A stretch of DNA of 64,000 bases from positions 62,001-126,000 of the forward strand of contig JHUT02000004.1 in assembly GCA_000690595.2 (NCBI GenBank). The letters are read 5' to 3'. The notes under the pieces were generated by a model that saw only the letters and a list, made by a program, of their open reading frames with translations, was not told where the DNA came from and did not search any database. Each line of letters begins with the position of its first letter. The first letter of the stretch is position 1. A program made the position numbers and the translations under genes. Shown here piece after piece: positions 49,816 to 64,000 of the stretch. Source of the stretch: Natrinema mahii. GTDB taxonomy: Archaea > Halobacteriota > Halobacteria > Halobacteriales > Natrialbaceae.

Positions 49816-50235
49816 TCACTCCAGGCGAGCGGAAATCGGCCGCTCGAGCGAGTCGGTCTCGAGGACGGATTCGAACGCCCCGCAGTTGGCCGCCGGCCCG
49901 ACGAGGCTGCGGACGCGATCCCAGGCGACGATGTCGTGCTCCGCCAGCAGCGGTAGGTGGGTCCGACACAGCGAGGTGTGGATCCGCTGGCGCAGGCGGT
50001 GGATCGTCGTCCCGACGGTCGGGTCGTGTTCGGCGTCGGCGAGGCGGCCGACCAGCGTCCGCAGCGGGACGGGGCCGTCGGCAGCGAGGACACAGCGGAT
50101 GACCTCTCGCCGCCGGTCGCTGTCGACGGCCTGACGGATCGTCTCCCGCGATGGGGGTCGGCGACCGATCCCGCCGTCGTTGCTGAGCCGCGACAGGTCC
50201 GAAACGACCGTCGAGCGGTCTGGGTGGATCGTCAT
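49816..50235 (-). CDS. Haloarchaeal winged-helix protein
   Basis: A 139-residue protein with a winged-helix (about 30-105: RREVIRCVLAADGPVPLRTLVGRL then HDPTVGTTIHRLRQRIHTSLCRTHLPLLAEHDIVAWD), typical of haloarchaeal regulators of the DUF7344 type. Target unknown. Convergent with hisG, 16 bp apart. The start could be 50241 (two residues longer). Confidence 0.75.
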   Translation of the reverse strand: MTIHPDRSTVVSDLSRLSNDGGIGRRPPSRETIRQAVDSDRRREVIRCVLAADGPVPLRTLVGRLADAEHDPTVGTTIHRLRQRIHTSLCRTHLPLLAEHDIVAWDRVRSLVGPAANCGAFESVLETDSLERPISARLE

Positions 50236-50595
50236 GGGCACGTGAGAGTCAGGGACGGAGACCCGGATAAACGCGAGCGGTCGTTTCGACGAATCCGACT
50301 CGATTCAAGCCAGTCGGCCGCGCTGGGCGGGAATTGAACGGTCGATAATTCGGTGCAAGCGATGAACTGACGGCCGGCCCTCGAGGTGACCGAGCCGGGC
50401 CGAACGGAACGAGCGACACCGAAAGCGGGTAAGACGATATTACCGGCGCGGCGGAGATCGGTCTCGCCGCTACGATCGAGTCACTGAGAGGAACGATCGG
50501 CAACGCCGTCGAACACGCCGGCCGATGCCGACGTGTCCGCGACTGACGGGGTGGTAGCGTCGGCCGCGGGTCACGCGGCGCGAAAACGGACGCCG
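50236..50595. other. 360-bp intergenic region
   Basis: It contains the wHTH gene's upstream DNA and the 3' side of tbp. No promoter motif, repeat or small gene stands out. Confidence 0.4.
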
Positions 50596-51156
50596 TTACT
50601 CGAGCAGGCCGAGGTCCTCGAGCCGGGAGACGATCTTGTCGACGGCGTGTTCGGCGTCCTCGGGCTTTTTGCCGCCGGTGATGACGAGCTTGCCCGAGCC
50701 AAACAGCAGTGCGACGACCTCGGGGTCGTCGAGTCGATAGACGAGTCCGGGGAACTGCTCGGGCTCGTACTCGATGTTCTCCAGCCCCAGCCCGATCGCG
50801 ATCGCGTTCAGGTTGAGGTTCCGACCGAGGTCGGCGCTGGTGACGATGTTCTGGACGACGATCTCGGGGTCCTCGTTGACCTGAATCTGGAGTTCACGGA
50901 GCTTGTCGAAGACGATGCGCAGGCTCTCGTGGACGTCGTCGGTGCTTTTCGCGCCGGTACAGACGATCTTCCCCGACCGGAAGATCAGTGCGGCGGACTT
51001 GGGATTCTGGGTGCGGTAGACGAGACCGGGGAACTGCTCGGGATCGTAGTCGGCCCCCTCGAGGTCCATCGCGACGCTCTGGAGGTCGAGTTCCTGTCCG
51101 ATGCCGGTCGACGCCACCACGTTTTCGATGTTGATGGTGTCCTTCGGATCCGTCAT
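50596..51156 (-). CDS. tbp: TATA-box-binding protein
   Basis: A 186-residue TBP, the general factor that recruits TFB and RNA polymerase. Two 90-residue direct repeats are evident: INIENVVASTGIGQELDLQS with PEQFPGLVYRTQNPKSAALIF, then VVQNIVTSADLGRNLNLNA with PEQFPGLVYRLDDPEVVALLF. Halophile acidity is marked. Haloarchaea may carry several tbp genes; this looks like the main type by completeness. Confidence 0.96.
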   Translation of the reverse strand: MTDPKDTINIENVVASTGIGQELDLQSVAMDLEGADYDPEQFPGLVYRTQNPKSAALIFRSGKIVCTGAKSTDDVHESLRIVFDKLRELQIQVNEDPEIVVQNIVTSADLGRNLNLNAIAIGLGLENIEYEPEQFPGLVYRLDDPEVVALLFGSGKLVITGGKKPEDAEHAVDKIVSRLEDLGLLE

Positions 51157-51183
51157 TAGTCGCTTAAAAAGACGTATTTAAGG

Positions 51184-51191
51184 TTTATAAA
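51184..51191 (-). promoter_or_regulatory. TATA box of tbp
   Basis: TTTATAAA lies about 31 bp before the tbp ATG (51156), predicting a transcript with almost no leader. TBP thus may bind its own promoter. Confidence 0.6.
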
Positions 51192-51326
51192 GGTTGGTAC
51201 CGCCACCTGATATGTCCGGTATATACCCGTCGCGCCGACGCGGCCGAGACGCCGATTCCGGGCTGCTTGCGGTTTCAGGCTGTGGTATTCGATCACAGGA
51301 TTCGGTTCGGGAAAAGCGGTAGGCTC

Positions 51327-52448
51327 ATGGCCGCGCCGCCGCGACCATCGGGCGTGTATCTGCTCGAATTGGGCGGCGAAGACGACGTGTTTGCGGCCCG
51401 CGAGGCGGCAAGCGCCGCGGTCGGCGTCGACCGGATCGCGCCCGGGCTGGCCGTCGCAGACGCGATCGTCCCCGAGCGGGTCCGCGGCCTCGCCTACACC
51501 CACCGCGCCAGCGAACTGGTCGGGCGGGGCGAGGCCGATCTCGCGAGTGCGCGTGCGGTCCTCGAGGCCGCCGCGATCGACCGCGAGGGATCCGTTGCGG
51601 TCCGGGCGACGGATGTCCACGGCTCGACGGGCGTGAGTACCGAGCGGGCCGAACGCGAGCTGGGTGCGGTGTTGGTCGACCGGGGGTTTTCGGTCGACCT
51701 CGAGGACCCCGATCACTGCCTGCGGGTCGTCTTCGCCGAGGGAGCCCTCGGGGGCGGCGGTGACGTCCTCGAGCCGGCCGGCGACGAGACGGGAACCGCT
51801 CCCGACACCGACGGCGACCCGGCCTCGGTCTGTGCGCTTGGCTGGCTCGCGGCCGAGAGCGTCCGCGACTTCGGCACGCGCGCGCCGACGGACAAACCGT
51901 TCTTCCAACCGGGCAGCATGGACCCCCTGCTCGCGCGGGCCGTCGCGAACCTCGCCGGCGCGCGGAGCGGGGCAACGATCCTCGATCCGATGTGTGGCAC
52001 CGGCGGCGGCCTCGTCGAGGCCGGCCTCGTCGGCGCGGACGTGATCGGCACCGACGCGCAGGCGAAGATGGTCCGGGGCGCGCGCGAGAACCTGACCCAC
52101 TTCCTCGAGCGCGAGGAGCCGTCCCCGACCGGCGTCGATCGCGGGGCCTGGCACGTCGCCCGCAGCGACGGGACCCGCCTTCCGCTCGCCGACGACGCGG
52201 TCGACGGCGTCGTCTTCGACGCGCCCTACGGCCGCCAGTCGAAGATCGACACCCACCGGCTCGAGGACCTCGTCGCGGGCGCGCTCGCGGAGGCCCACCG
52301 GGTCGCACCGCGAGCGGTCATGATCGCCGATCGCTCGTGGGCCGCCGAAGCGCGGGCCGCGGGCTGGGCGATCGAGTCGGCCTTCGAGCGCCGGGTCCAT
52401 CGGTCGCTGACGCGGTACGTGCTGGTCCTCGAGCGAGAATCTTCGTAA
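51327..52448 (+). CDS. trmG10: tRNA (guanine10-N2)-methyltransferase, Trm-G10 type
   Basis: A 373-residue THUMP-containing SAM methyltransferase that modifies G10 of tRNA. Visible: an N-terminal THUMP-like part (about 1-160), SAM motif ILDPMCGTGGGLVEAGLVGADVIG near 215, and the catalytic motif VVFDAPYGRQSKI near 300, a variant of DPPY. KPFFQPGSMDPLLARAVANLA precedes motif I, as in Trm-G10 proteins. The ATG at 51327 starts at MAAPPRPSGVYLLEL. Confidence 0.9.
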   Translation: MAAPPRPSGVYLLELGGEDDVFAAREAASAAVGVDRIAPGLAVADAIVPERVRGLAYTHRASELVGRGEADLASARAVLEAAAIDREGSVAVRATDVHGSTGVSTERAERELGAVLVDRGFSVDLEDPDHCLRVVFAEGALGGGGDVLEPAGDETGTAPDTDGDPASVCALGWLAAESVRDFGTRAPTDKPFFQPGSMDPLLARAVANLAGARSGATILDPMCGTGGGLVEAGLVGADVIGTDAQAKMVRGARENLTHFLEREEPSPTGVDRGAWHVARSDGTRLPLADDAVDGVVFDAPYGRQSKIDTHRLEDLVAGALAEAHRVAPRAVMIADRSWAAEARAAGWAIESAFERRVHRSLTRYVLVLERESS

Positions 52449-52500
52449 CGTCTGTCGATCGTTTGGACTAACGGATACAGAGCGACTGAGTAGTCGCTGC

Positions 52501-52636
52501 TATCGTGGCAACACGGAGTAGCCACGCCCTCCCCAACCGATTCACTCACTCCCGCCGGTCGTTCGTTCATCCCTCGCACGATGTTGCGTCGCGGGTCGTC
52601 GGTGACGAACCGCGCCCCGGCGCGCGCCACCGCAGA
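52501..52636 (-). repeat. Dispersed haloarchaeal repeat, copy 2
   Basis: This is the inverse of the repeat at 2891-3030. Landmarks on the minus strand: gcggtggcgcgcgcc, gcaacatcgtgcgaggga, tcggttggggagggcgtgg and tgttgccac. Identity is broken in the central GC-rich section but order and spacing agree. Confidence 0.75.
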
Positions 52637-52651
52637 AATCACAATGGGCGT

Positions 52652-53089
52652 TCAGCCCTCAATTTCGTGGACGCGGTCCCGAAGCCGTTCCCCTTTCTCG
52701 GTCTCGACCGAGAGGTCGGGGACGGGGACCGTCTCGCCGTTCTCGTCGATCGCGACGAAGGTAAACGTCGACTCGGTGGTCTTCTCGGTCTCGCCGCTGC
52801 GGGGTTCCTCGCGCCAGGCGCGTAAGGCGACGTGGACGCTCGTTCGGCCCGCGTCGTAGACGTACGCCTCGACCAGCGCCGTGTCGCCGATTCGGATCGG
52901 CCGCTCGAAGTCGAGCTCGTTCACGCGGGCGGTGACGCAGGTCTCGCCGGCAAAGCGCATCGCCGACATCGCGCTCACCTCGTCGAGCCACTTCATGAGG
53001 TTGCCGCCGTGGAGCGTGTCGTTGTTGTTCGCATGGTTGGGCTGGACGCGAAAGCGGTTCCGAATGTGGGTCTCGAGAAGCGTCGGCAT
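52652..53089 (-). CDS. Acyl-CoA thioesterase (hotdog fold)
   Basis: A 145-residue hotdog thioesterase of the YciA/BFIT type. Typical motifs: NHANNNDTLHGGNLMKWLDEVSAM near 17-40 with the catalytic Asp/Asn region, then GETCVTARVNELDFERPIRIGD and STFTFVAIDENGE. It would hydrolyse acyl-CoAs in the cytoplasm. The start was set at MPTLLETHIRNRF. Confidence 0.88.
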   Translation of the reverse strand: MPTLLETHIRNRFRVQPNHANNNDTLHGGNLMKWLDEVSAMSAMRFAGETCVTARVNELDFERPIRIGDTALVEAYVYDAGRTSVHVALRAWREEPRSGETEKTTESTFTFVAIDENGETVPVPDLSVETEKGERLRDRVHEIEG

Positions 53090-53178
53090 ACGGAGCCGTT
53101 CGCACGACGATCTGAAGAAAACGACCCCCACGTGTGAGATAAGAGACGTTTTTCCGTACCGAACTCGGAGGAAATCCC

Positions 53179-53742
53179 ATGAGTCGAGAGACTCCAGCCC
53201 GCGAGCCGCCGCGGTGGGCCCGCCTCCTCGGGCTCGGACTCATCGCTATGATCGTCGTCGGACTCACGTATCGGACCCTCGAGGATGCGGCGTCAGTACA
53301 GGACGCGGTCCGGGGGCTCGTCGGTATCGGGCTGTTCTGTCTGTGGCTCGGGTATAGCTACGTCTCGCGGACACGCTGGCGCGATCGCAACGCCCGGGCC
53401 GGGCTGGCATTGCTCGGTTGTCTGGCGATTACCGGCGCAGTGCTTTCCCTGCTGACGGCCGCCGATGGGCAGTGGCTGGACCGCGAGTTAGCGATCACCG
53501 TCGGCGCGGCAGTCCTGTTCTCGCTCGCGTTGGTTCTCTCGCGGTACGTCTCCCTCTCGAGTCGCGCGTTCGGCGTCCTCGTCTCGGCTGCGGGCATCGG
53601 CATCGTCGGCATCGGGCTGACCGCCCACGGAACCGAGCGATCGCTCGATGCGATTAGCACCGGCGGAATCTGCCTCGTGATCGGCTGCCTGTACGTCTGG
53701 AAACCGAACGCGATGGAACGACTCGAGAACGGGACCGACTGA
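53179..53742 (+). CDS. Six-helix membrane protein, unknown function
   Basis: A 187-residue hydrophobic protein with six predicted helices (starting at LLGLGLIAMIVVGLTY, GLVGIGLFCLWLGYSYV, LALLGCLAITGAVLSLL). No known family motif is recognised. The short soluble ends are charged. It diverges from the thioesterase and converges with rfc. Confidence 0.65.
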   Translation: MSRETPAREPPRWARLLGLGLIAMIVVGLTYRTLEDAASVQDAVRGLVGIGLFCLWLGYSYVSRTRWRDRNARAGLALLGCLAITGAVLSLLTAADGQWLDRELAITVGAAVLFSLALVLSRYVSLSSRAFGVLVSAAGIGIVGIGLTAHGTERSLDAISTGGICLVIGCLYVWKPNAMERLENGTD

Positions 53743-53779
53743 TCGGGAATGAGTCACAGTCTCCCAGAAGCGTCGTCAG

Positions 53780-54784
53780 TCAGGCCTCTCGGCCCAGTTC
53801 GGCCAACAGCCCCGAGACGTGAAGCCGATCGCTGGTCCCCTCGTGCATCTCGAAGTCGACGTCGGCCGCCAGCCGGTGGATCTCGGCGAGTTGCTCGCCC
53901 TGGTACCGCTTGCGCGCGACCGCCAGGATCGCCTCGAGGACCTCGTTGCCGTCCAACCCCTCGTCGACGAGCAGGTCGTCCAGCGTCGACCGGGCGTCGG
54001 TAAAGTCGCCGGCCTCGGCGTCGTCGAGCATGGACTCGATCTCGTCCTCGAGGCCGACCTCGCCGAGGGTCTCGTAGGCCGCGCTCATCGTGAGTTCGTC
54101 CGCGTCCTCGACGGTCGTCTGCGCTGCGAGAATTGCCTGTCGGAGGTTGCCGTCGGCGTAGCCCGCGACGAACTCGAGGCCGTCCGCGTCGTAGTCGACC
54201 CCCTCGCGCTCGACGATGCGCTCGAGAACGGTGACGATCTCCTCGCTGGTCGGCGAGGGGAAGGAGACGGGGAAACACCGCGAGCGAATCGGCGGGATGA
54301 GTTTGGTGGGCTGGCGGGTGGCGACGATGAACTGGGTCGTCCGGTGGTGTTGTTCCATGATCCGGCGCAGGGCCTGCTGGAAGTCCTCGCGGACGTCCTC
54401 GGCGTTGTCCAGCAGGATCGTCGTGTAGCCGCCCGAGACGGGCGCGTAGCTCGCGGACTCCTTGAGAACGTGGTTGATCATGTCCCGTTTCGACATCGAC
54501 GAGCGGCCGACGAGGAAGTGTTCGAACCGCGGATCGTTCGTGATCTCGGTCTTGGTCCGGCCGAAGAAGTCGGCGACGTTGATCTCGACGAAGTCGTTAT
54601 CGGGATCCTCGTGAGCCTCACGGGCGAGTGCGCGCGCCGCTGCCGTCTTCCCGCTCCCGGGCGGGCCCTGCAGGAGGAGGTTGATCGGCTCCTCGACGGC
54701 CCGCTCTAAGTACTCGCGGGCGTCGTCCTGTGGCAACTCGGCCAGCTCCGGGGCGTGGGTTTCGGTCCACAGCGGCGCGTCCAT
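53780..54784 (-). CDS. rfcC: Replication factor C small-subunit paralogue
   Basis: A 334-residue clamp-loader AAA+ protein. Walker A is intact (LLLQGPPGSGKTAAARAL near 35), the RFC segment FGRTKTEITNDPRFEHF is present, and SRC-type IRSRCFPVSF follows near 165. The Walker B reads TTILLDNAED where active subunits have a D-E-A-D; the catalytic Glu is Asn. It therefore resembles the third haloarchaeal RFC subunit, likely a structural or regulatory member that loads PCNA (pcn, 24811) with other RFC proteins encoded elsewhere. Confidence 0.88.
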   Translation of the reverse strand: MDAPLWTETHAPELAELPQDDAREYLERAVEEPINLLLQGPPGSGKTAAARALAREAHEDPDNDFVEINVADFFGRTKTEITNDPRFEHFLVGRSSMSKRDMINHVLKESASYAPVSGGYTTILLDNAEDVREDFQQALRRIMEQHHRTTQFIVATRQPTKLIPPIRSRCFPVSFPSPTSEEIVTVLERIVEREGVDYDADGLEFVAGYADGNLRQAILAAQTTVEDADELTMSAAYETLGEVGLEDEIESMLDDAEAGDFTDARSTLDDLLVDEGLDGNEVLEAILAVARKRYQGEQLAEIHRLAADVDFEMHEGTSDRLHVSGLLAELGREA

Positions 54785-54848
54785 CGCCAGCCGATAGGGG
54801 ACAGGCGGGTAAGAATCGGTCGGTTAGGCGGCGGCCGGGCCGGGTCGG

Positions 54849-55967
54849 CTACCCGCCGTCGGACTCGTTTCCGCCGCCGTCGTCGGCACCGTCCCCCGCG
54901 TCCGCGATCGTGAACGTCGTTTCGACCGGCTCGCCGTCGAACTCGATCGGCGATGCCGCGTCGGTATCGCCCGACGAGCCCGCGTAGAGGGCGGCCGTCA
55001 GTTCGTCGTCCTCGTCGATCGACGCGTCGTCGGCGAGATCGACCGTCACGTTCTCGTGTTCGCCGGGCTCGAGTTCGTCACTGGTCCCGAGAACCGTCCC
55101 GTTGCCCTCGACGGCGACGAATCCGGTCTCGGGGGTCGCCGCCGAGACCGTCACGCGCTCGTCGCTTGCGTTCTCGACCGCGACGCTCGGGTCCGTATGG
55201 AACTCGAGGTCGATCGTCGAGACCGCGCCGTCGGCGTCGGTGTAGATCCCGATCGTCCGCTCGCCCGGCGGCGCGCCGCTCGTATCGGTCTCGAAGGTGA
55301 CGGTTCGGGACTCGCCACCCTCGAGTTCCAGGATCTGCCGTTCGAAGACCGCGCCGTCGATGCGGACTTCGACCGGCTGTTGGGTCTGGAACTCGGTCGG
55401 GTTACGGATCGTCGCGTTCACCCGGATCGTCTCGTTGGTCGTCGCGGTCGCGGGGGCGTCGATCGACTCGACGGCGAACGAATCGTCCAGCGCATCCGCC
55501 TCGCCGGTCGTCACCGTCGCGGTGTCGCTGACCGGGAACCCGGCCTCGAGGTAGGGGCGGTCCTCCTCGCCGTCGGTCTCGTCGTAGGCGTAGCCCTCCT
55601 GGTCCGCGGTGTCTCGGTGGACCGTCGCCGTCAGCTGGCCGACGAGTTCGCGGGTCGCGTCGTCGGCGCGTTCGACGGAGACATCCTCGTGAGTGCCGGC
55701 CTCGAGCCGATCCGAGACCGCGAGCGGCTCGTCGCCGCCGTCGGTGACGACGACGTAGCCGCCCTCCGAGAGCGAGACCTCCTGGATCGTGACCGCGGTG
55801 CCGTTGCCCTGTTGATCCTCGAACGTGATCGACGCCTCGGGGTCCTCTTCGACGCCGAAGATAGCGGGGGCCTGCCCGACCACGATCCCGGCGGCGAGGA
55901 CGATCGCGATCGCGAGCAAGATTGCGCCGATCCGCTTTACCGTGCCGAACGTCAGTTGCGGGCTCAT
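54849..55967 (-). CDS. Membrane-anchored surface protein with DUF7282-like domains
   Basis: A 372-residue protein with an uncleaved signal-anchor (about 10-32: IGAILLAIAIVLAAGIVVG) and a long extracellular beta-rich part. Two similar blocks occur (about 43-130: ASITFEDQQGNGTAVTIQEVSLSEGGYVVV; about 255-345: VAVENASDERVTVSAATPETGFVAVEGNGTVLG) with EAGTHEDVSVERADD and EPGEHENVTVDLADD, the DUF7282 pattern. A CARDB-like unit (about 160-250) lies between. It is probably a cell-envelope protein; no enzymatic motif. Confidence 0.7.
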   Translation of the reverse strand: MSPQLTFGTVKRIGAILLAIAIVLAAGIVVGQAPAIFGVEEDPEASITFEDQQGNGTAVTIQEVSLSEGGYVVVTDGGDEPLAVSDRLEAGTHEDVSVERADDATRELVGQLTATVHRDTADQEGYAYDETDGEEDRPYLEAGFPVSDTATVTTGEADALDDSFAVESIDAPATATTNETIRVNATIRNPTEFQTQQPVEVRIDGAVFERQILELEGGESRTVTFETDTSGAPPGERTIGIYTDADGAVSTIDLEFHTDPSVAVENASDERVTVSAATPETGFVAVEGNGTVLGTSDELEPGEHENVTVDLADDASIDEDDELTAALYAGSSGDTDAASPIEFDGEPVETTFTIADAGDGADDGGGNESDGG

Positions 55968-56246
55968 CTGGGGGTCGTCGTCTCCCCTTTGGGGCCGACG
56001 GTGGTAAAACGCGTCGTCCGTTCGCAGGACGGCGAACCGGTTCGAATCGGTTTCTCCGAATAGTCACTGCTTACCACAGTTCGTGAGGCCCGTCGGCGAC
56101 GCGTCCGTTCCGGCGGCGACTCGAGGCTCGACCGGCACGCGCCCCGGCCACGGTGTTTGTCACCGCTTACCACTTCCCGGTGTGGTCGAACGCTGCCCTC
56201 GAGCGATCCGAAGGCGGTTTAGTCGCGGCCCGCGGAGCCTTGGGCG

Positions 56247-57185
56247 ATGCCACTGCGCGTGACGTTTCTGGGGACGGCCGGGGCGATCCCGACGACCGAC
56301 CGGAATCCGAGCAGCGTCTTCGTCGCCCGCGAGGGCGAGGAGCTGCTGTTCGACGCCGGCGAGGGGACACAGCGCCAGATGATGCGCTTCGGTACGGGGT
56401 TTTCCGTCTCGCAGCTGTTCGTCACGCACTGTCACGGCGATCACGTCCTCGGGATTCCGGGGCTGCTCCAGACGATGGCGTTCAACGACCGTGAGGAGCC
56501 GCTGGCGATCCACACCCCCCACGGGACGCGCCGGCAGATCAAGGGCCTGATCAACGCCCTCGGAAACCGCCCCTCGTTTCCCGTGCGGATCAACGAAGTC
56601 GGGGACGGCGACGTCGCCTACCGCGGCGAGGAGTACGAGGTCCGGGCGTTCGAGACCGACCACGACACCCGGTCGGTCGGCTACGCGCTCGTCGAGGACG
56701 ACCGCAAGGGCCGGTTCGACCGCGAGCGCGCCGAGGAACTCGGCGTCCCCGTCGGCCCGAAGTTCTCACGACTCCACGAGGGCGAGTCGGTCGAACTCGA
56801 GGACGGCACCGTCGTCGATCCCGAACAGGTCGTCGGTGACTCCCGCCCCGGTCGGTCGATCGTCTACACCGGCGACACCCGCCCGACCGAGGCGACGATC
56901 GGCGTCGCCGCGGATCCCGATCTGCTGATCCACGACGCCACCTTCGCCGACGACCGGGCCGACCGCGCCGCCAGCACTGCTCACTCGACGGCCCGACAGG
57001 CAGCCGAAATCGCGAACCGGGCCGGGGCCGACCGCCTGGCGCTCTTGCACCTGTCCTCGCGCTATGCCGGCCACACCGACGACCACGAGGGGCAGGCCCG
57101 CGAGGTCTTCGCCGGCGATCCCGACGCCGTGTTCGTCCCCGACGACGGCGATTCCCTCGAGATTACGTATCCCGACAGCGAGTGA
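56247..57185 (+). CDS. rnz: Ribonuclease Z (tRNA 3' endonuclease)
   Basis: A 312-residue tRNase Z that trims tRNA 3' ends before CCA. The metal site is clear: FVTHCHGDHVLGIPGLLQTM near 62, GSxxP-like GTAGAIPTTDRNPSS near 10, YTGDTRPTEATI near 210, and H in LLHLSSRYAG near 275. The length fits the short RNase Z form. The ATG at 56247 begins MPLRVTFLGTAGAI, the standard family start. Confidence 0.95.
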   Translation: MPLRVTFLGTAGAIPTTDRNPSSVFVAREGEELLFDAGEGTQRQMMRFGTGFSVSQLFVTHCHGDHVLGIPGLLQTMAFNDREEPLAIHTPHGTRRQIKGLINALGNRPSFPVRINEVGDGDVAYRGEEYEVRAFETDHDTRSVGYALVEDDRKGRFDRERAEELGVPVGPKFSRLHEGESVELEDGTVVDPEQVVGDSRPGRSIVYTGDTRPTEATIGVAADPDLLIHDATFADDRADRAASTAHSTARQAAEIANRAGADRLALLHLSSRYAGHTDDHEGQAREVFAGDPDAVFVPDDGDSLEITYPDSE

Positions 57186-57242
57186 GACGACGTCCTGCGA
57201 ACCCGCGTCGGATTTATAGCCGCCTCGTCCCTACGACCCCCT

Positions 57243-59219
57243 GTGAGTACCCGAACGAGTGCGCTCGATGCAGTCGTCTTCGGTGTCGACATCCAGAGCG
57301 GTGACGTACGCGGCGACGCGCCATCGTACGCACTGGCCGTCTACGACGGTGACGACGTCAGCCGGGACGTCGTCACCCACCGGAAACTCCGGCGACTGAT
57401 CGACGACGAGGAGCCGGCGATCGTCGCGACCGACAACATGTACGAGCTGGCTGCCGACAAGGACCAGCTCATCCACTTCCTGGGCTCGCTACCGGCCGAC
57501 ACCATGCTCGTTCAGGTGACGGGTGCCGAGCAACCCGAACCCCTCTCGAGGGTCGCGAAACGCCACGGCGTCCCCTACGGGAAAGACCCCATGCAAGAGG
57601 CCGAGGCCGCGGCCCGACTGGCCGCCCACAACGTCGGCCACGAGGTGTCCGCCTTCACCGATACGACGGAGGTCAAGGTCGCTCGGGGCCGCTCGACCGG
57701 CAGCGGCGGCTGGAGCGAGGACCGCTACACCCGCCGCATCCACGGCTCGGTCAGGAAGCGGGCCCGCGAGGTCGAGGCCGACCTCGAGGACGCGACCCTC
57801 GCCTACGAGCGCGAGGTCCGGGAGGCCTACGGGGGCTTCGCCAACGCCATCTTCACCGTCGAAGCGCGACCGCAGGACATCCCCGTCTCGCGCAACCGCT
57901 CGGGCGACGTCCGCGTCGAGATCGAACGGGAACGACGGGACGGCATCGAATTCCGCCCGCTCGCGAAACGGCGCGATCACGTCGTCGTGGGGATCGACCC
58001 CGGGACGACGACCGCCGTCGCCATCGTCTCCCTCGAGGGCGAGGTGTTGGACGTCTGGAGTTCCCGCACCAGCGACACCGCCGACGTGATCGAGTGGATC
58101 GTCGAGCGCGGCCGACCGATCATCGTCGCCGCGGACGTGACCCCGATACCCGAGACCGTCGAGAAGTTCCGCCGGAGCTTCGACGCCGCCGGCTGGACGC
58201 CCGACAGCGATCTGCCGATCGACGAGAAACAGCACCGCACGCGCGACCACCCCTACGACGACGACCACCAGCGCGACGCGATGGCCGCCGCCCTCTACGC
58301 CATCGACGACCACGCGGATCAGTTTGACCGGATCGCCGACAAGCTCCCGCCGGGGATCGACCGCGGGAAGGTCACCGCCCGCGTCGTCGCCGGCGAGGAG
58401 AGCGTCGAGGCCGTCCTGACGGACCTGCGTGACGACGACGGCGGCGAGGACGACGAGGCCACCGAACACGAACCCCGCGAACTCACCGCGGAAGAACAGC
58501 GGATCAAGGACCTCGAGCGACAGGTCGACCGGCTGCAGTCACACGTCGAGACCCTCGAGGGCCGCATCGAGGATCGGGACGACCGCATCGACGAACTCGA
58601 GTCCGAACTCTCGCTGGCCCGGCGCGAGGAACGCACGCAGGTCCGCAAGGACCGCGAGGTGAACCGTCTGGAACGGAAGGCGAACCGTCTGGAACGCGAG
58701 CGCGACGAGGCCCGGGAGACGGTCGAGGACCTCGAGGGAAAAGTCGAGCGCATGAAGGCCCTCTGGAAGCTCGACCACTCGAACTTCAGCGACGTCTCCG
58801 CGGAGAAGGAGGGGCTGGTCCCGGTCAAGGTCGTCGAGAAGTTCACCAAGGGCGCGATCCGCGAGGCCGACGAGCAGTACGGGATCGCCAGCGGCGACGT
58901 GGTGTACATCCGGGACGCGAGCGGCGCGGGTCGCTCGACGGCCCAGCTCATGGCGGAGTTCGACCCCCGCGTGATCCTCAAAGAGGGCGGCCTCTCGGAA
59001 ATCGCCGACGAGATCCTCTTCGAGGCCGAGGTTCCGGTCGGCCCCGCCGACGACGTGGCGATGCAGGAAGTCGACGAACTCGCCGTCGCCCGCGAGGACG
59101 ACGTCGAGGCCGTCATCGACGACTGGCACGACCGGGCCCGCGAGCGACGGAAACAGCGCAAGGCCTCGATGGTCGACCAACTCATCAGCGAACACCGGGC
59201 CGGCGACAACGAGGTCTGA
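57243..59219 (+). CDS. DUF460 protein (RNase H-like fold plus coiled coil)
   Basis: A 658-residue archaeal DUF460 family protein. The N-terminal domain (1-110) reads VVFGVDIQSGDVRGDAPSYALAVYDGD. A second RuvC/YqgF-like domain starts at VVVGIDPGTTTAVAIVSLEG near 245 and ends with the acidic D-H-x-R-D-A-M-A block (HQRDAMAAALYAIDD near 345). Residues 415-510 form a long coiled coil (QVDRLQSHVETLEGRIEDRDDR). The C-terminal domain (about 520-658) is novel. The family is almost confined to archaea and has unproven nucleic-acid function. GTG start. It follows rnz by 57 bp on the same strand. Confidence 0.85.
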   Translation: MSTRTSALDAVVFGVDIQSGDVRGDAPSYALAVYDGDDVSRDVVTHRKLRRLIDDEEPAIVATDNMYELAADKDQLIHFLGSLPADTMLVQVTGAEQPEPLSRVAKRHGVPYGKDPMQEAEAAARLAAHNVGHEVSAFTDTTEVKVARGRSTGSGGWSEDRYTRRIHGSVRKRAREVEADLEDATLAYEREVREAYGGFANAIFTVEARPQDIPVSRNRSGDVRVEIERERRDGIEFRPLAKRRDHVVVGIDPGTTTAVAIVSLEGEVLDVWSSRTSDTADVIEWIVERGRPIIVAADVTPIPETVEKFRRSFDAAGWTPDSDLPIDEKQHRTRDHPYDDDHQRDAMAAALYAIDDHADQFDRIADKLPPGIDRGKVTARVVAGEESVEAVLTDLRDDDGGEDDEATEHEPRELTAEEQRIKDLERQVDRLQSHVETLEGRIEDRDDRIDELESELSLARREERTQVRKDREVNRLERKANRLERERDEARETVEDLEGKVERMKALWKLDHSNFSDVSAEKEGLVPVKVVEKFTKGAIREADEQYGIASGDVVYIRDASGAGRSTAQLMAEFDPRVILKEGGLSEIADEILFEAEVPVGPADDVAMQEVDELAVAREDDVEAVIDDWHDRARERRKQRKASMVDQLISEHRAGDNEV

Positions 59220-59225
59220 TCGAGA

Positions 59226-59480
59226 TCAGTCGGCCGATTCGGTCGGCGACAGCACCTGCGGCACCTCCTCGAGGTCGACCTCCTCGCCGAGGTCGTCGGT
59301 GTCGTCGATCGGGCCGTTGACAAACAGCGCGTGCCCGATGAAGGCGATCGCGACGATCCCGAGGCCGAGGATCGCCAGCGGTGCGGGCACCGGCGTCGCG
59401 TAGCCGACGACGGCACCGGTCCCGAGACTCGCCGCGATGGCGATCAACACGAGGTCGTAGTAGTGAAGCGTCGGTCCCAT
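59226..59480 (-). CDS. Two-helix membrane protein
   Basis: An 84-residue protein with membrane segments at about 7-27 (YYDLVLIAIAASLGTGAVVGY) and 32-54 (PLAILGLGIVAIAFIGHALFV) followed by an acidic tail. Unknown function, conserved style in haloarchaea. Convergent with the DUF460 gene. Confidence 0.65.
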   Translation of the reverse strand: MGPTLHYYDLVLIAIAASLGTGAVVGYATPVPAPLAILGLGIVAIAFIGHALFVNGPIDDTDDLGEEVDLEEVPQVLSPTESAD

Positions 59481-59537
59481 ACCGGAACCGACGGGACGCA
59501 GACGCAAAACGCTTGAGCCGATCCGGGGGCGCTGCCG

Positions 59538-59717
59538 TCAGAACATGCCGAAGTTCTGGAGCATGCCGGAGATCAGGGATTTGACGACGAGTCCGAGTCC
59601 GGCCAGTACCAGCGCCATCCCGACGGCGACGATCCAGTTCGCGTACGCGATGAGGCCGATCCCCGCGAGCAAGAGGACGATACCGACGAGACCGAGCGCG
59701 CCGAGATTACGGAGCAT
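59538..59717 (-). CDS. Two-helix membrane protein (DUF7470-like)
   Basis: A 59-residue protein with two transmembrane helices (GALGLVGIVLLLAGIGLIAY and IVAVGMALVLAGLGLVVKS) and a short amphipathic end LISGMLQNFGMF. Start MLRNLGALG. Function unknown. Same strand as the preceding small membrane gene, 57 bp apart, so they may be cotranscribed. Confidence 0.65.
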   Translation of the reverse strand: MLRNLGALGLVGIVLLLAGIGLIAYANWIVAVGMALVLAGLGLVVKSLISGMLQNFGMF

Positions 59718-59852
59718 ACGCTGGGTTGCAGAGCCGAGCGAAATAAGCGGCGTGGTTTCGGGGACCGGTCGATCGGGCGCGACCGCGACGGCTAGCGATT
59801 CCGTTCGCGCAATCAGTAAAGGGTTAAACCCCTCGACCGCCAACCTGCGGCC

Positions 59853-60143
59853 ATGAGCGACGACGGCGAGGGCGGTCGGAAGAACCTCCGGATGCCCGAG
59901 GACGACGAGGTCTTCGCGACCGTCACGAACATGCTCGGGGCGAATCGAGTCAAGGTACGCTGTGCCGACGGCACCGAACGCACCGCACGGATTCCCGGGA
60001 AGATGCAAAAGCGCATCTGGATCCGCGAGGACGACGTCGTGCTGGTCGAACCCTGGGACTGGCAGGACGAGAAGGCCGACATCACCTGGCGCTACGAGAA
60101 GAGCGAGGCCGACCAGCTCCGCGAGGAAGGCCATATTCAGTAA
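59853..60143 (+). CDS. eif1A: Translation initiation factor aIF1A
   Basis: A 96-residue OB-fold factor that helps scan and select the start codon with aIF1 and aIF2. The core is standard: [30 protein letters not shown] and [25 protein letters not shown] ttaaac in a GGGTT-A-AACCC palindrome 30 bp upstream serves as TATA. It is followed by a structured repeat. Confidence 0.95.
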
Positions 60144-60151
60144 GAACGAAG

Positions 60152-60190
60152 TTTTGCGCTGCGGGCCGCCTTCGGCGGCCCTCGGCAAAA
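60152..60190 (+). repeat. Covarying nested-hairpin repeat, copy A
   Basis: Outer arms TTTTGC (60152-60157) and GCAAAA (60185-60190) enclose an inner stem GGGCCGCC-TTC-GGCGGCCC. The same layout occurs at 61949-61986 with different inner bases that still pair perfectly, i.e. compensatory change. Similarity continues another 25 bp (AAAAGC(A/G)CTCCTC). Directly downstream of eif1A, so it could also end its transcript. Confidence 0.7.
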
Positions 60191-60477
60191 ATTCGATTAA
60201 AAGCGCTCCTCCTTCCTCTCCGTTCGCGCTGCTCACTCCGAGTCAGTCGTCGGCCCGCGAGCGCCTTCGGCGTTCGCGGTGAACGGCGTCGCTCGGGTTC
60301 TTCGAACCGCTCGCTCGCCGACGATACGCGTGAGATAGGTCAACCATCCGAAACCAGTCTGTTCTCCGGTTTTCAGTGGTGGTGTTCTAAAATCTTCCAG
60401 TCGCAGCATCGCTCGCGCCGATACCGTTCGAGGCTGCGACCCATCACAAGTCCTGACTATCATCGGACACAGAAGAC

Positions 60478-60486
60478 TTATTTTAC
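60478..60486 (+). promoter_or_regulatory. TATA box of the subtilase gene
   Basis: CTTATTTTA is centred 25 bp before the ATG at 60507, predicting a leaderless mRNA. Confidence 0.5.
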
Positions 60487-60506
60487 CGTTGTACATCGAC
60501 CCGCGC

Positions 60507-61850
60507 ATGCAATGCAGCCGGCGGCAGGTACTCGGCGGTATCGGTGCCGGCGCTGCGGCCGGGTTGCTCGGCGTCCCCGCGTCGGCCGCGGAGTCCGAAC
60601 CCGACACCGAGCGGGTGTTCGTCCACCCCAAAACGGGACTGCTCGACGGGCTCGGCGACTTCTTTGGGCTCATCGAGGCCGTCGGCGGGACGACGCTGCT
60701 CGAGTACGACAACTTCGAGTTCGTGGTCGCGAGGGTTCCCACGACCGGGCTAGACGAACTGCGTGGCGACGACCGCGTGGCGTTCGTCGAAGACGACGAC
60801 GAGACCGGGATTCCCGGGGACTGGTCGCCGACCCTGCCGGACCTGCTGGACCCGCCGGACGGCGCCGACTGTGCCACCCATCCCGACCAGCGACCGTCCT
60901 GGGGGCTGGAACGCATCGGTGCCGACGGCGTCGAGCAGAACGGAGCGGGCGTCGACGTCGGGATCCTCGATACGGGGATCCAGTCGGCCCACTGTAGTCT
61001 GTCGGTCGCCGACGGGCGGAACGTCACCGGCGACGGACCGCCCGGCGACTACGAGGACCGCCACGGCCACGGGACCCACGTCGCCGGGATCGTCGGCGCG
61101 CTGGACAACGGCCGCGGCGTCGTCGGCGTCGCCCCCGACGTGAACCTGCACGCGGTGAAGGTACTCGACGACGACGGTGCCGGCCGCTACAGCCAACTGA
61201 TCGCCGGAATCGACTGGTGTCTGTCGAACGACGTCGAACTGATCTCGATGAGCCTCGGCGGCGACGCCGAGAGCGCCTCGCTGAGTCGGGCCATCGACAA
61301 AGCGCACTCGGCGGGACACCTCCTGCTCTGTGCGGCCGGCAACGAGGGCACCGACGGGGGCGACTCCTGTGACGCGGCGACGATGACCTATCCGGCGACC
61401 CACGAGAACGTCGTCGCGGTCACCGCGATGAACGAGGACGAGACGTTGGCGTCCTACAGCAGCGTCGGGTCGGCCGTCGACCTGCTGGCCCCGGGAACGG
61501 AGATCAACTCGACGACCGTCGACAACCGGTACGCGCAGGCGAGCGGGACGAGTATGGCCTGCCCGTTCGTCACCGGCGTCGCGGCGCTCGTCTGGGAGAG
61601 ACGCGATGAAAACGGGCCGGGACCGAACGATCCAGTCCGGGAGATCCTCGGCGGGACGGCCGAGACGGTCCTCGGAACGTGTGCGGAAGGCGACGGGCTC
61701 GTCAACGCCCGGGCGGCGGTCGGCGACGAACGCGCGACCGAGGGTGCCACCTGGAACGACGGCGTCGTCGCCGGACTGCGGTCGCTTCTCGAGCGGGTCG
61801 TCGATCTGATCGCCGACTTCTTCGAGTGGCTCCGGGGACTGTTCTCGTAG
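60507..61850 (+). CDS. Tat-exported subtilisin-like serine protease
   Basis: A 447-residue S8 peptidase (halolysin-like). A twin-arginine signal (CSRRQVLGGIGAGAAAG) implies folded export. A propeptide-like segment (about 32-110) precedes the catalytic domain: Asp in VDVGILDTGIQ near 153, His in DRHGHGTHVAGIVG near 190, oxyanion Asn in LLCAAGNEG near 277 and Ser in SGTSMACPFVTGVAAL near 350, in subtilase order. A short helical tail (residues 415-447) ends in WLRGLFS. The shorter ATG was chosen because it gives a clean RR signal. Confidence 0.93.
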   Translation: MQCSRRQVLGGIGAGAAAGLLGVPASAAESEPDTERVFVHPKTGLLDGLGDFFGLIEAVGGTTLLEYDNFEFVVARVPTTGLDELRGDDRVAFVEDDDETGIPGDWSPTLPDLLDPPDGADCATHPDQRPSWGLERIGADGVEQNGAGVDVGILDTGIQSAHCSLSVADGRNVTGDGPPGDYEDRHGHGTHVAGIVGALDNGRGVVGVAPDVNLHAVKVLDDDGAGRYSQLIAGIDWCLSNDVELISMSLGGDAESASLSRAIDKAHSAGHLLLCAAGNEGTDGGDSCDAATMTYPATHENVVAVTAMNEDETLASYSSVGSAVDLLAPGTEINSTTVDNRYAQASGTSMACPFVTGVAALVWERRDENGPGPNDPVREILGGTAETVLGTCAEGDGLVNARAAVGDERATEGATWNDGVVAGLRSLLERVVDLIADFFEWLRGLFS

Positions 61851-61869
61851 CCGCGGCGACGACCGACCC

Positions 61870-61938
61870 TAGAGCCCGGCGACGTCCTCGATCGCGTCGG
61901 TCAGCTCTTTGATCGACTCGAGGTCGTGTTCGCCCACG
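61870..61938 (-). pseudogene. Duplicated 3' end of the aminotransferase gene
   Basis: 61873-61936 is an exact 64-bp copy of 62180-62243. It encodes the last 22 codons of the neighbouring aminotransferase (GEHDLESIKELTDAIEDVAGL) in the same frame, with its own stop TAG at 61870-61872. Beyond 61937 the match ends. It is a stranded gene tail, not an expressed gene. Confidence 0.85.
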
Positions 61939-61948
61939 GAGACCCACC

Positions 61949-61986
61949 TTTTGCGCTACGGGCTGGCATAGCCAGCCTCGGCAAAA
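61949..61986 (+). repeat. Covarying nested-hairpin repeat, copy B
   Basis: Arms TTTTGC (61949-61954) and GCAAAA (61981-61986) enclose GGCTGGC-ATA-GCCAGCC. Relative to copy A every changed stem base is matched on the other side. The 190 bp that follow are rich in further short hairpins (gcggcttcgccgc; ggcgcgttgcgcc). Confidence 0.7.
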
Positions 61987-62175
61987 GCTGGACCAAAAGC
62001 ACTCCTCACTCCCTCAGCTCGCGGCTTCGCCGCTCGCCATGTCGTGGCGCGTTGCGCCACGCTCCGGTCGTTCGTCGGCCCGCTCGCTCACTGGCTCACG
62101 GCTATCGCCGTTCGCCTATTCGCGGCGCGTCGCGCCGCGAAACCGTTCGTTCGCGGTGACTCCCTATGGGGCCCC

Positions 62176-63288
62176 TCACAGCCCGGCGACGTCCTCGATC
62201 GCGTCGGTCAGCTCTTTGATCGACTCGAGGTCGTGTTCGCCCATGTGGCCGATGCGGAAGGTCTTCTCGCCGAGTTGCGAGCCGTAGCCGTTCGAGAAGA
62301 CGAAGTCGTACTCCTCGGAGACGGCCTCGATGGTCTCGGCAACGTCGATGCCCTGCGTGTTCTCGATGCAGCTGACCGTCTGGGACTCGTAGCCCTCCTC
62401 GGGGAACATGTCTAAGTGGTCACGCGCCCACTCGCGGGTGTACTCGGCCATCTCGCGGTGGCGCTCGTCCCGGGCGTCGTGGCCCTCGGAGAGCATGTGT
62501 TTCATCTGCTTGCGATACGCGAGCATGATCGGGATCGCCGGCGTGGAGTGAGTCTGGCCCTTCCGCTCGTAGTAGTCGATCGTCCGCTGGAAGCCGCCGT
62601 ACCACGACGCGGAGTCTTTCTCGAGTTCGCGCTCGTAGGCGTCGTCGCTGACGACACAGACTGCGAGTCCGGGGGGCATCGCGAACGCCTTCTGGGTCGA
62701 GGCGAAGATGACGTCGATATTGTGTTCGTCGATATCGACGTAGTCCCCGCCCAGCGAGGAGACGGCGTCGACGACGAAGTAGGTGTCCGGATACTCGGCG
62801 ACGACGTCGCCGATCTCCTCGATCGGGTTGCGCACGCCCGTCGAGGACTCGTTCATGACGGTCGCGACGACATCGTAGTGTTTGTCGCTTTCCTCGAGCG
62901 TCTCGCGGATGTCCTCGGGTTTGATCGCCTGCCCCCACTCGTACTCGAGGCGATCGACGTTCTTCCCGAGCCGCTCGGCGACGTTGGCGTGGCGCTCGCT
63001 GAAGCTGCCACAGGTCGGCACGAGGATGTTCTCGTCGACGAGATTGAGCGTCGAGGCCTCCCAGAACTCCGTGCCCGATCCGGTCAGGATGACGACCTCG
63101 TTGTCGGTGCCGAGGAACTCCTTGGTGTCCTCGACGATGGTCGTATAGAGGTCGGTCATCCGGTCCATCCGGTGGCCGAACATCGGCTCGCACATCGACT
63201 CGATGACGTCCTCGCGCACCTCGGTCGGGCCCGGAATATACAGCGTCTTGTCGGGGTAGTCGCCCGTGTATTCGCGTTTTTCGGTCAC
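62176..63288 (-). CDS. PLP-dependent aminotransferase (alanine-glyoxylate type)
   Basis: A 370-residue class V aminotransferase of the alanine-glyoxylate/serine-pyruvate group. Visible: the start TEKREYTGDYPDKTLYIPGPTEV, GTGTEFWEASTLNLVDE-like phosphate-site glycines (LTGSGTEFWEAS), cofactor Asp in FVVDAVSSLGGDYVDI, and the PLP-binding Lys in FASTQKAFAMPPG near 190. The GTG at 63288 was chosen for the upstream GGTGAT ribosome site at about 63295-63300 on the minus strand and family match. Specific substrate is uncertain. Confidence 0.9.
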   Translation of the reverse strand: MTEKREYTGDYPDKTLYIPGPTEVREDVIESMCEPMFGHRMDRMTDLYTTIVEDTKEFLGTDNEVVILTGSGTEFWEASTLNLVDENILVPTCGSFSERHANVAERLGKNVDRLEYEWGQAIKPEDIRETLEESDKHYDVVATVMNESSTGVRNPIEEIGDVVAEYPDTYFVVDAVSSLGGDYVDIDEHNIDVIFASTQKAFAMPPGLAVCVVSDDAYERELEKDSASWYGGFQRTIDYYERKGQTHSTPAIPIMLAYRKQMKHMLSEGHDARDERHREMAEYTREWARDHLDMFPEEGYESQTVSCIENTQGIDVAETIEAVSEEYDFVFSNGYGSQLGEKTFRIGHMGEHDLESIKELTDAIEDVAGL

Positions 63289-63430
63289 GGATATCACCTG
63301 ATACGGGCTACTGCGAAGCGAGGCGGTATGGTACTTTTGATGCCATCCTGAGAGCGCGGCGCACCGGCGAGAAGGCACCCCTCCGCGAGCAGGCGGGGCG
63401 ACTCGATCGGGGACGCGACCGCCGCTCGAG

Positions 63431-64000
63431 CTACTCGCCGCTTCGGACTCGGATAGTCCCCTGCATGATGGTGTAATGCGGGTGGCAGACGTACGTGGCC
63501 ATCTCCTCGCTGGCGGTGACCGTCAGCCGCTGGCCCTCGTCGGGCTCGGCGACCAGTTCGGTCTCGAGACCGTCGACGACGTCCTCGTTTTCGTCCCAGA
63601 TCTCGATGTTGTGTAGGGCGCCGTCTCCCTCGGTCCAGCCGATCGTGTACTCCGCGCCCGCCTCGAGAACGAGCGTCGGGTTCGCGACCCCCTCGATCGC
63701 GGACGGCTCGAGGCCGACCCATTCGGCGGTCTCCCCGCTGAACAGGATCTCCGTTCCGGGTTCGATCTCGTACTCGCGATCGGTCTCGGTCGGTTCGGTC
63801 CCCTCGTCCTCGGGGTCGGTCTCCGAATCGTCGTCGTCGGCGGTATCGGCACCGTCCGACGCCGCGTCACCGTCGGCCCCGTCCGCTCCCGACCCGTCGC
63901 CTCCATCGGTCTCGTCCCCGGTCTTGGGTTCGTCGCCATCGCTGTCATCGGTCGAACCGCCGGGATCGTCGTCGGTCGTACTTTCGTCCAGACACCCCGC
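63431..64000 (-). CDS. Blue-copper (halocyanin-like) lipoprotein, partial
   Basis: The frame runs off the window end and lacks its start; 190 codons are present. The N-terminal AGCLDE is a lipobox, so only a signal peptide is missing. A long Asp/Thr-rich linker (about 5-85) follows. The cupredoxin domain has the copper ligands His (ALHNIEIW) and Cys-His-Met (VCHPHYTIM) near the end, after YTIGWTEGDG. It would be an electron carrier at the outer membrane face. Confidence 0.9.
   Translation of the reverse strand, partial: AGCLDESTTDDDPGGSTDDSDGDEPKTGDETDGGDGSGADGADGDAASDGADTADDDDSETDPEDEGTEPTETDREYEIEPGTEILFSGETAEWVGLEPSAIEGVANPTLVLEAGAEYTIGWTEGDGALHNIEIWDENEDVVDGLETELVAEPDEGQRLTVTASEEMATYVCHPHYTIMQGTIRVRSGE

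Follow-up and report, generated by a model that had tools for sequence, protein, structure and literature searches.

Covariation that looks at least partly mutational in a palindromic repeat family at haloarchaeal gene ends

Short intergenic palindromes are known from bacteria as REP and BIME repeats with their RAYT (TnpA-REP) transposases, while haloarchaea carry small mobile repeats such as the PATEs of Haloquadratum walsbyi, which resemble the ends of IS605-type elements and cause no target duplication (PMC3119063). In Haloferax, transcripts are terminated efficiently by T-stretches, the main terminator in this organism, and 503 termination sites have a hairpin upstream, one tested hairpin having terminated 59% of transcripts (PMC7237163). 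A further relevant process is template switching, which in yeast homogenises the arms of inverted repeats and inverts 3-bp spacers (TCC to GGA, TTC to GAA) (PMC8604942) and is able to create compensatory changes in RNA genes (PMC8794818). Covariation is the usual gold standard for selected RNA structure, and the original prediction for two hairpins in the window (the whole 64,000-nucleotide stretch of the Natrinema genome analysed here) was that their compensatory base changes support selection on structure.

Two hairpins and the repeat family they represent

Direct reading of the window confirmed both nested hairpins, at 60152-60190 and 61949-61986, with inner stems that differ in their bases and are nevertheless perfectly paired, over 8 bp in copy 1 (60163-60181) and 7 bp in copy 2 (61961-61977). 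Pairing runs further out than had been predicted, through outer arms of the types CTAAA/TTTAG, CGAAG/ATTCG and CCAAC/CTTGG. The hairpin with these arms is here called H1, and the features of the locus are as follows.

59853-60143, + strand: gene for the translation initiation factor aIF1A (NCBIfam NF003083, 9e-56), whose 3' end carries copy 1
60147-60195, + strand: copy 1 of H1 with its outer arms (CGAAG ... ATTCG), from the sequence, starting 3 nt past the aIF1A stop
60152-60190, + strand: copy 1 core, TTTTGC-GCTGC-GGGCCGCC-TTC-GGCGGCCC-TCG-GCAAAA
60196-60326 (right end approximate), + strand: copy 1 tail with the linkers AAAAGCGCTCCTCC and GTCGTCGGCCCG and hairpins at about 60255-60280 and 60292-60312
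60489-61850, + strand: subtilisin-like serine protease gene between the two copies (best match TIGR03921, below cut-off)
61873-61936, - strand: distal copy of the aminotransferase 3' end in a 64-bp duplication, 100% identical to 62180-62243
61944-61991, + strand: copy 2 of H1 with its outer arms (CCACC ... GCTGG)
61949-61986, + strand: copy 2 core, TTTTGC-GCTAC-GGGCTGGC-ATA-GCCAGCC-TCG-GCAAAA
61992-62160, + strand: copy 2 tail with AAAAGCACTCCTC, the linker CGTCGGCCCGCTCG and perfect hairpins at 62043-62061 and 62119-62141, ending near CGCGGTGA
62176-63378, - strand: class-V aminotransferase-like gene (NCBIfam aminotransferase matches, below cut-offs), its 3' end duplicated around copy 2
62180-62243, - strand: proximal copy of the 64-bp duplication, the real aminotransferase 3' end

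Across its copies H1 follows the consensus CNAAN-TTTTRC-KCTRC-[stem]-GNA/TNC-[stem]-TCG-GYAAAA-NTTNG-AT(N)AAAAGCACTCCTC, in which the linkers CNAAN-TTTTRC, KCTRC, CTCGGYAAAA and GATNAAAAGCACTCCTC are fixed and in the internal loop the bases KCTRC and TCG are near-invariant, while the stem is hypervariable: 208 parsed unique cores yielded 201 distinct stem-loop sequences. The stem is nearly always self-complementary, with a C-G closing pair and a triloop that is mostly GNA or TNC (93 of 126, all closed by C-G, against a background of 10%). Four T residues precede the hairpin and four A residues follow it, so that T4 is found on each strand. H1 heads a longer composite repeat, about 200 bp in length, whose tail consists of further hairpins set between fixed linkers (AAAAGCACTCCTC, GTCGTCGGCCCGCTCG) that in the Natrinema genome occur mostly together with H1. 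The bases before TTTT, after AAAA and after GAT co-vary (A,T,C / G,A,T / C,C,G), which points to subfamilies, and in six loci (L111, L116, L120, L128, L189 and L204) the GCAAAA arm carries an additional inserted hairpin directly behind it (TCTTCAAAAGAGCGC...GCGCTCTTTTGGAC or TCTCGAGAGAGC...GCTCTCTCGGAC), which is a second nested repeat.

A pattern leaving the stem free found 10 copies in the whole Natrinema genome and none when reversed. The covariance model built from these 10 gave 45 matches at E<=1, including reverse-strand matches of the same palindromes, with a best value of 5.8e-18; by this model the genome holds roughly 25 copies in total, about 13 of them strong and the remaining dozen or so weaker, and the search with it found copies in all 24 congeners and in 6 of its 17 genera. 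The pattern scan of 391 Halobacteria genomes matched 140 of them, in 44 of 86 genera, with zero matches to the reversed control throughout. Named records carry the motif in many haloarchaeal genera beyond Natrinema, Haloferax and Halobacterium among them. Because the stem-free patterns match so widely, the reversed controls are empty and the covariance-model E value is so low, the hairpins are not a product of chance. No match above the gathering score was obtained from Rfam 15 in positions 50000-64000, and a literature search on the motif strings and on haloarchaeal palindromic repeats, in which subscription papers were mostly out of reach and an earlier mention is possible, found no description. 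The family is real and widespread, apparently undescribed in the literature searched, and we read it as a REP/MITE-like, dispersed and composite palindromic repeat of haloarchaea placed at gene ends.

Gene ends and the histories of the two copies

A same-strand upstream gene was found for 88 of 106 copies examined, and in 76 of these 88 H1 starts 4-11 nt past its stop; on the downstream side 39 of the 88 have a convergent gene, 27 a co-oriented one and 22 none that was called, all gene calls in this census being approximate since they were made by codon-position G+C. H1 usually lies on the coding strand, and the same housekeeping genes commonly carry it in different species. Recurring orthologous hosts, identified by NCBIfam, include the thermosome (29 copies), aIF1A (15), uL16/L10e (12), the DNA polymerase D large subunit (7), TFS (6) and the proteasome-activating nucleotidase (5). 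That H1 persists at the same genes in different genera is suggestive of purifying selection, and this counts against a purely mutational account, which has no need of such selection.

Copy 1 lies beyond the aIF1A stop codon (60141-60143), the first T of its TTTT being 8 nt past the stop. When aIF1A was located in 29 Natrinema genomes and the 330 nt past the stop codon were read by eye, the element was recognisable in about 23 of the 29, with stems that differ between species, and relatives keep the copy 1 tail 3' of aIF1A as well, G004 matching it at 84.8% identity over 191 nt. G006 and G042 show a core pair flipped to TTTTCC/GGAAAA, the element is decayed in G008, G012 and G013, and it is missing from the 3' flank in G002, G011, G016, G018, G019 and G024, although five of these six (all except G018) still keep TTTTGC near the stop. 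Copy 1 is accordingly inherited for the most part vertically, with turnover of its stem, and is no fresh insertion; it has long resided behind aIF1A and is dispensable. At the aIF1A 3' ends L271 and L272 (genomes G044 and G014) the H1 start is partly duplicated upstream of a second H1 start, and these are apparent template-switch or slippage intermediates.

The history of copy 2 is different. It is flanked by the two exact 64-bp duplicates of the aminotransferase 3' end, and in the close relative G004 the protease adjoins the aminotransferase and copy 2 is absent, as it is there in others. In another genus (G203, L324) the order protease, duplicate, element, aminotransferase is kept with diverged duplicates, so that either the event is of old date, with loss from most Natrinema, or the arrangement was acquired by transfer. 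Its arms, CCACC/GCTGG, are similar to those of Haloferax copies. Transposition from another copy in the same genome was considered and rejected, the only other match there being partial (79%) and the best match, likewise arranged, being found in another genus. Copy 2 arrived separately, and the two window copies differ because they belong to separate lineages of the family. Flanking direct repeats of at least 24 nt were absent from the 11 other own copies tested, the 64 bp around copy 2 being the sole duplication.

Inverted pairs of H1, 286-444 bp apart, were also observed, at L159:2935-3284 and in G045, G051, G068, G098 and G265; the pair in L159 has the same stem at both ends, sits between divergent genes and resembles a two-ended element.

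Covariation and template switching

The covariation test over the genome and its relatives which had been proposed with the original prediction was carried out, and pairing was kept far beyond shuffled expectation. Among the 10 own copies 98.3% of cells pair, five pairs are changed on both sides, one outer position shows three pair types (G-C, T-A, C-G), and the covariation score is 0.208 as against 0.057 +/- 0.016 for shuffles. Across 59 distinct relatives both sides are changed in 67 cells and one side alone (G-U) in 5, compared with 15.0 +/- 2.7 double-changed cells in shuffles, none of 500 of which reached the observed value. The covariation itself therefore stands, but it is no secure basis for concluding that (RNA) structure is selected: G-U pairs show no excess over A-C, loops flip and arms are rewritten, and copies with broken stems, which had been named beforehand as evidence against the prediction, were found at aIF1A in at least three species.

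Selection on an RNA hairpin would be expected to tolerate G-U but not A-C. The ratio of G-U to A-C in H1 cores was 27:19 in the inner stems and 29:28 with the outer pair included, and in the alignment of relatives it was 5:11, as opposed to 46:21 in the control, RNase P RNA from 30 sequences of the same class. When double changes were set against all non-Watson-Crick cells, the difference between H1 and RNase P was not significant (p 0.23), and the wobble test is suggestive evidence against selection on RNA structure, short of decisive.

Signatures of template switching were found in loops and arms alike. In eight cases triloops on identical arms, at the same gene in different species, are exact reverse complements (GAA/TTC six times, AAA/TTT and GGA/TCC); these cases account for 8 of the 19 loop pairs in which every position differs, with p 1.9e-7 against an expectation of 1/27, a null which ignores the skewed loop composition. 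The 5' arm has been rewritten into a perfect complement of the 3' arm in G014 (TTTTACCGAGAGCGCGGC/GCCGCGCTCTCGGTAAAA) and G007 (GCCGAGGGCCGCC/GGCGGCCCTCGGC). A further such signature is the flip of the paired core in G006 and G042 to TTTTCC/GGAAAA. The sequence GCGAAGC forms an extraordinarily stable DNA mini-hairpin, and together with the C-G-closed GNA/TNC triloops this fits folding as DNA on either strand. The covariation of H1 thus looks like a product, at least in part, of a quirk of DNA copying. Its structure may still be under selection, of which covariation alone is no proof.

Competing readings and comparison with known systems

We consider it fairly probable that H1 is a REP/MITE-like gene-end repeat whose stems are kept paired partly through template switching and which is retained as a 3' boundary mark. 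During DNA copying, template switching would rewrite one arm from the other and flip the loop, and since arms would be rewritten in this way, changes would arise in pairs and the stems would, at least partly, stay paired. Less certainly, H1 would be retained as a mark of the 3' boundary of the gene, the T-tract beside the stop codon might end the transcript, and the palindromes might act as a barrier at the level of DNA or RNA. The role of H1 would most likely be that of a 3'-boundary element of housekeeping genes.

Among the alternatives, a bidirectional site of transcription termination or insulation between converging genes is a real possibility, albeit one we hold at less than even. Such a site would be served by T4 on both strands, by the predominance of T-stretch termination in Haloferax (PMC7237163) and by the persistence of TTTTGC close to the aIF1A stop in the five genomes without the element, and 39 of the 66 copies that have both a same-strand gene upstream and a called gene downstream do lie between convergent genes; however, 27 of the 66 precede a co-oriented gene, the L159 inverted pair sits between divergent genes, the T-run has only 4 T, and the implied 3' UTR of about 12 nt is short of the Haloferax median of 97 nt (PMC7237163).

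Rather doubtful is a reading at the level of DNA, in which a haloarchaea-wide hairpin or cruciform, one strand of it bearing a GNA triloop closed by C-G, serves as punctuation at the ends of housekeeping genes and its stems are continually renewed by template switching, covariation then arising without selection at the RNA level.

We regard it as unlikely that H1 is a functional 3' UTR RNA hairpin, an mRNA stabiliser or part of a terminator, with covariation reflecting classical selection on RNA structure. Its usual place on the coding strand just past the stop of housekeeping genes, the strong covariation (the 67 double-changed cells in 59 relatives) and the hairpins upstream of Haloferax termination sites (PMC7237163) are what such a hairpin would lead one to expect, but the missing excess of G-U over A-C, the free flipping of loops to their reverse complements, the 5' T-tract and 3' A-tract, the breakage or loss of the aIF1A copy in several species and the lack of an Rfam match all speak against it.

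Equally improbable to us is that H1 is mobile DNA of MITE, PATE or REP type moved by a transposase, with sites behind stop codons being merely tolerated places of insertion. The copies are dispersed and modular, and owing to the inverted pairs and to the 64-bp exact duplication at copy 2, a site empty in G004 and others, this reading keeps a small probability. It is weakened by the fixed distance to the stop codon, a spacing too precise for tolerated insertion, and by the missing Y1 (IS200/RAYT) transposase (PF01797), with no match in the Natrinema genome (G000) under a search whose positive control was detected in Haloferax volcanii; the recurrence of the same genes across genera and the other own copies without flanking repeats also stand against it. 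An origin from RAYT/IS200 elements is rejected for the lack of Y1 in the genome, and a bacterial-type intrinsic terminator, which needs a G+C hairpin followed by a T-tract, is dismissed because in H1 the T-tract precedes the hairpin and A4 follows it; a scan for sigma-70 promoters and intrinsic terminators listed neither window hairpin, its counts being at shuffle level.

H1 is a widespread, apparently undescribed 3'-flanking element of haloarchaeal housekeeping genes, present also in Haloferax species, in which genetics is possible. It offers a large natural set, with hundreds of copies in many species and at several orthologous sites, and its covariation is extreme yet bears the marks of a mutational mechanism, which makes it a good test case for separating selection from mutation.

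When compared with known systems, H1 is, as REP elements are, an extragenic palindrome, some 20-40 nt long and dispersed in multiple copies, and it resembles REP/BIME repeats with RAYT in being short and intergenic, in its location at gene ends and in its composite arrangement. It differs from them in that it is archaeal, has a hypervariable stem between fixed flanks, lacks an invariant GTAG/CGTC end tag, its conserved ends being CNAAN-TTTTRC and GYAAAA, and resides in a genome without Y1. With regard to the terminal inverted repeats of MITEs, most own copies show a single H1 and inverted pairs are limited to some genomes; where MITEs have a short target-site duplication, the one duplication seen here measures 64 bp. 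Like the PATEs and small mobile repeats of H. walsbyi, H1 is a haloarchaeal non-coding repeat with palindromes, but unlike them it is tied in position to the stop codon, has a 64-bp duplication at one copy, but none at the 11 others tested, and occurs where Y1 is lacking (PMC3119063). It shares with haloarchaeal T-stretch terminators a T-tract downstream of genes, T4 being no more than about 12 nt from the stop codon, and the proximity of hairpins to some termination sites, whereas its T4 is 5' of the hairpin and its unit is a sequence-conserved repeat family (PMC7237163). Finally, perfect arms, paired changes and inversion of a 3-nt spacer (TTC to GAA) are common to H1 and to inverted repeats homogenised by template switching; those cases are mutation events in yeast genes and RNA genes, whereas H1 is a dispersed archaeal repeat family (PMC8604942, PMC8794818).
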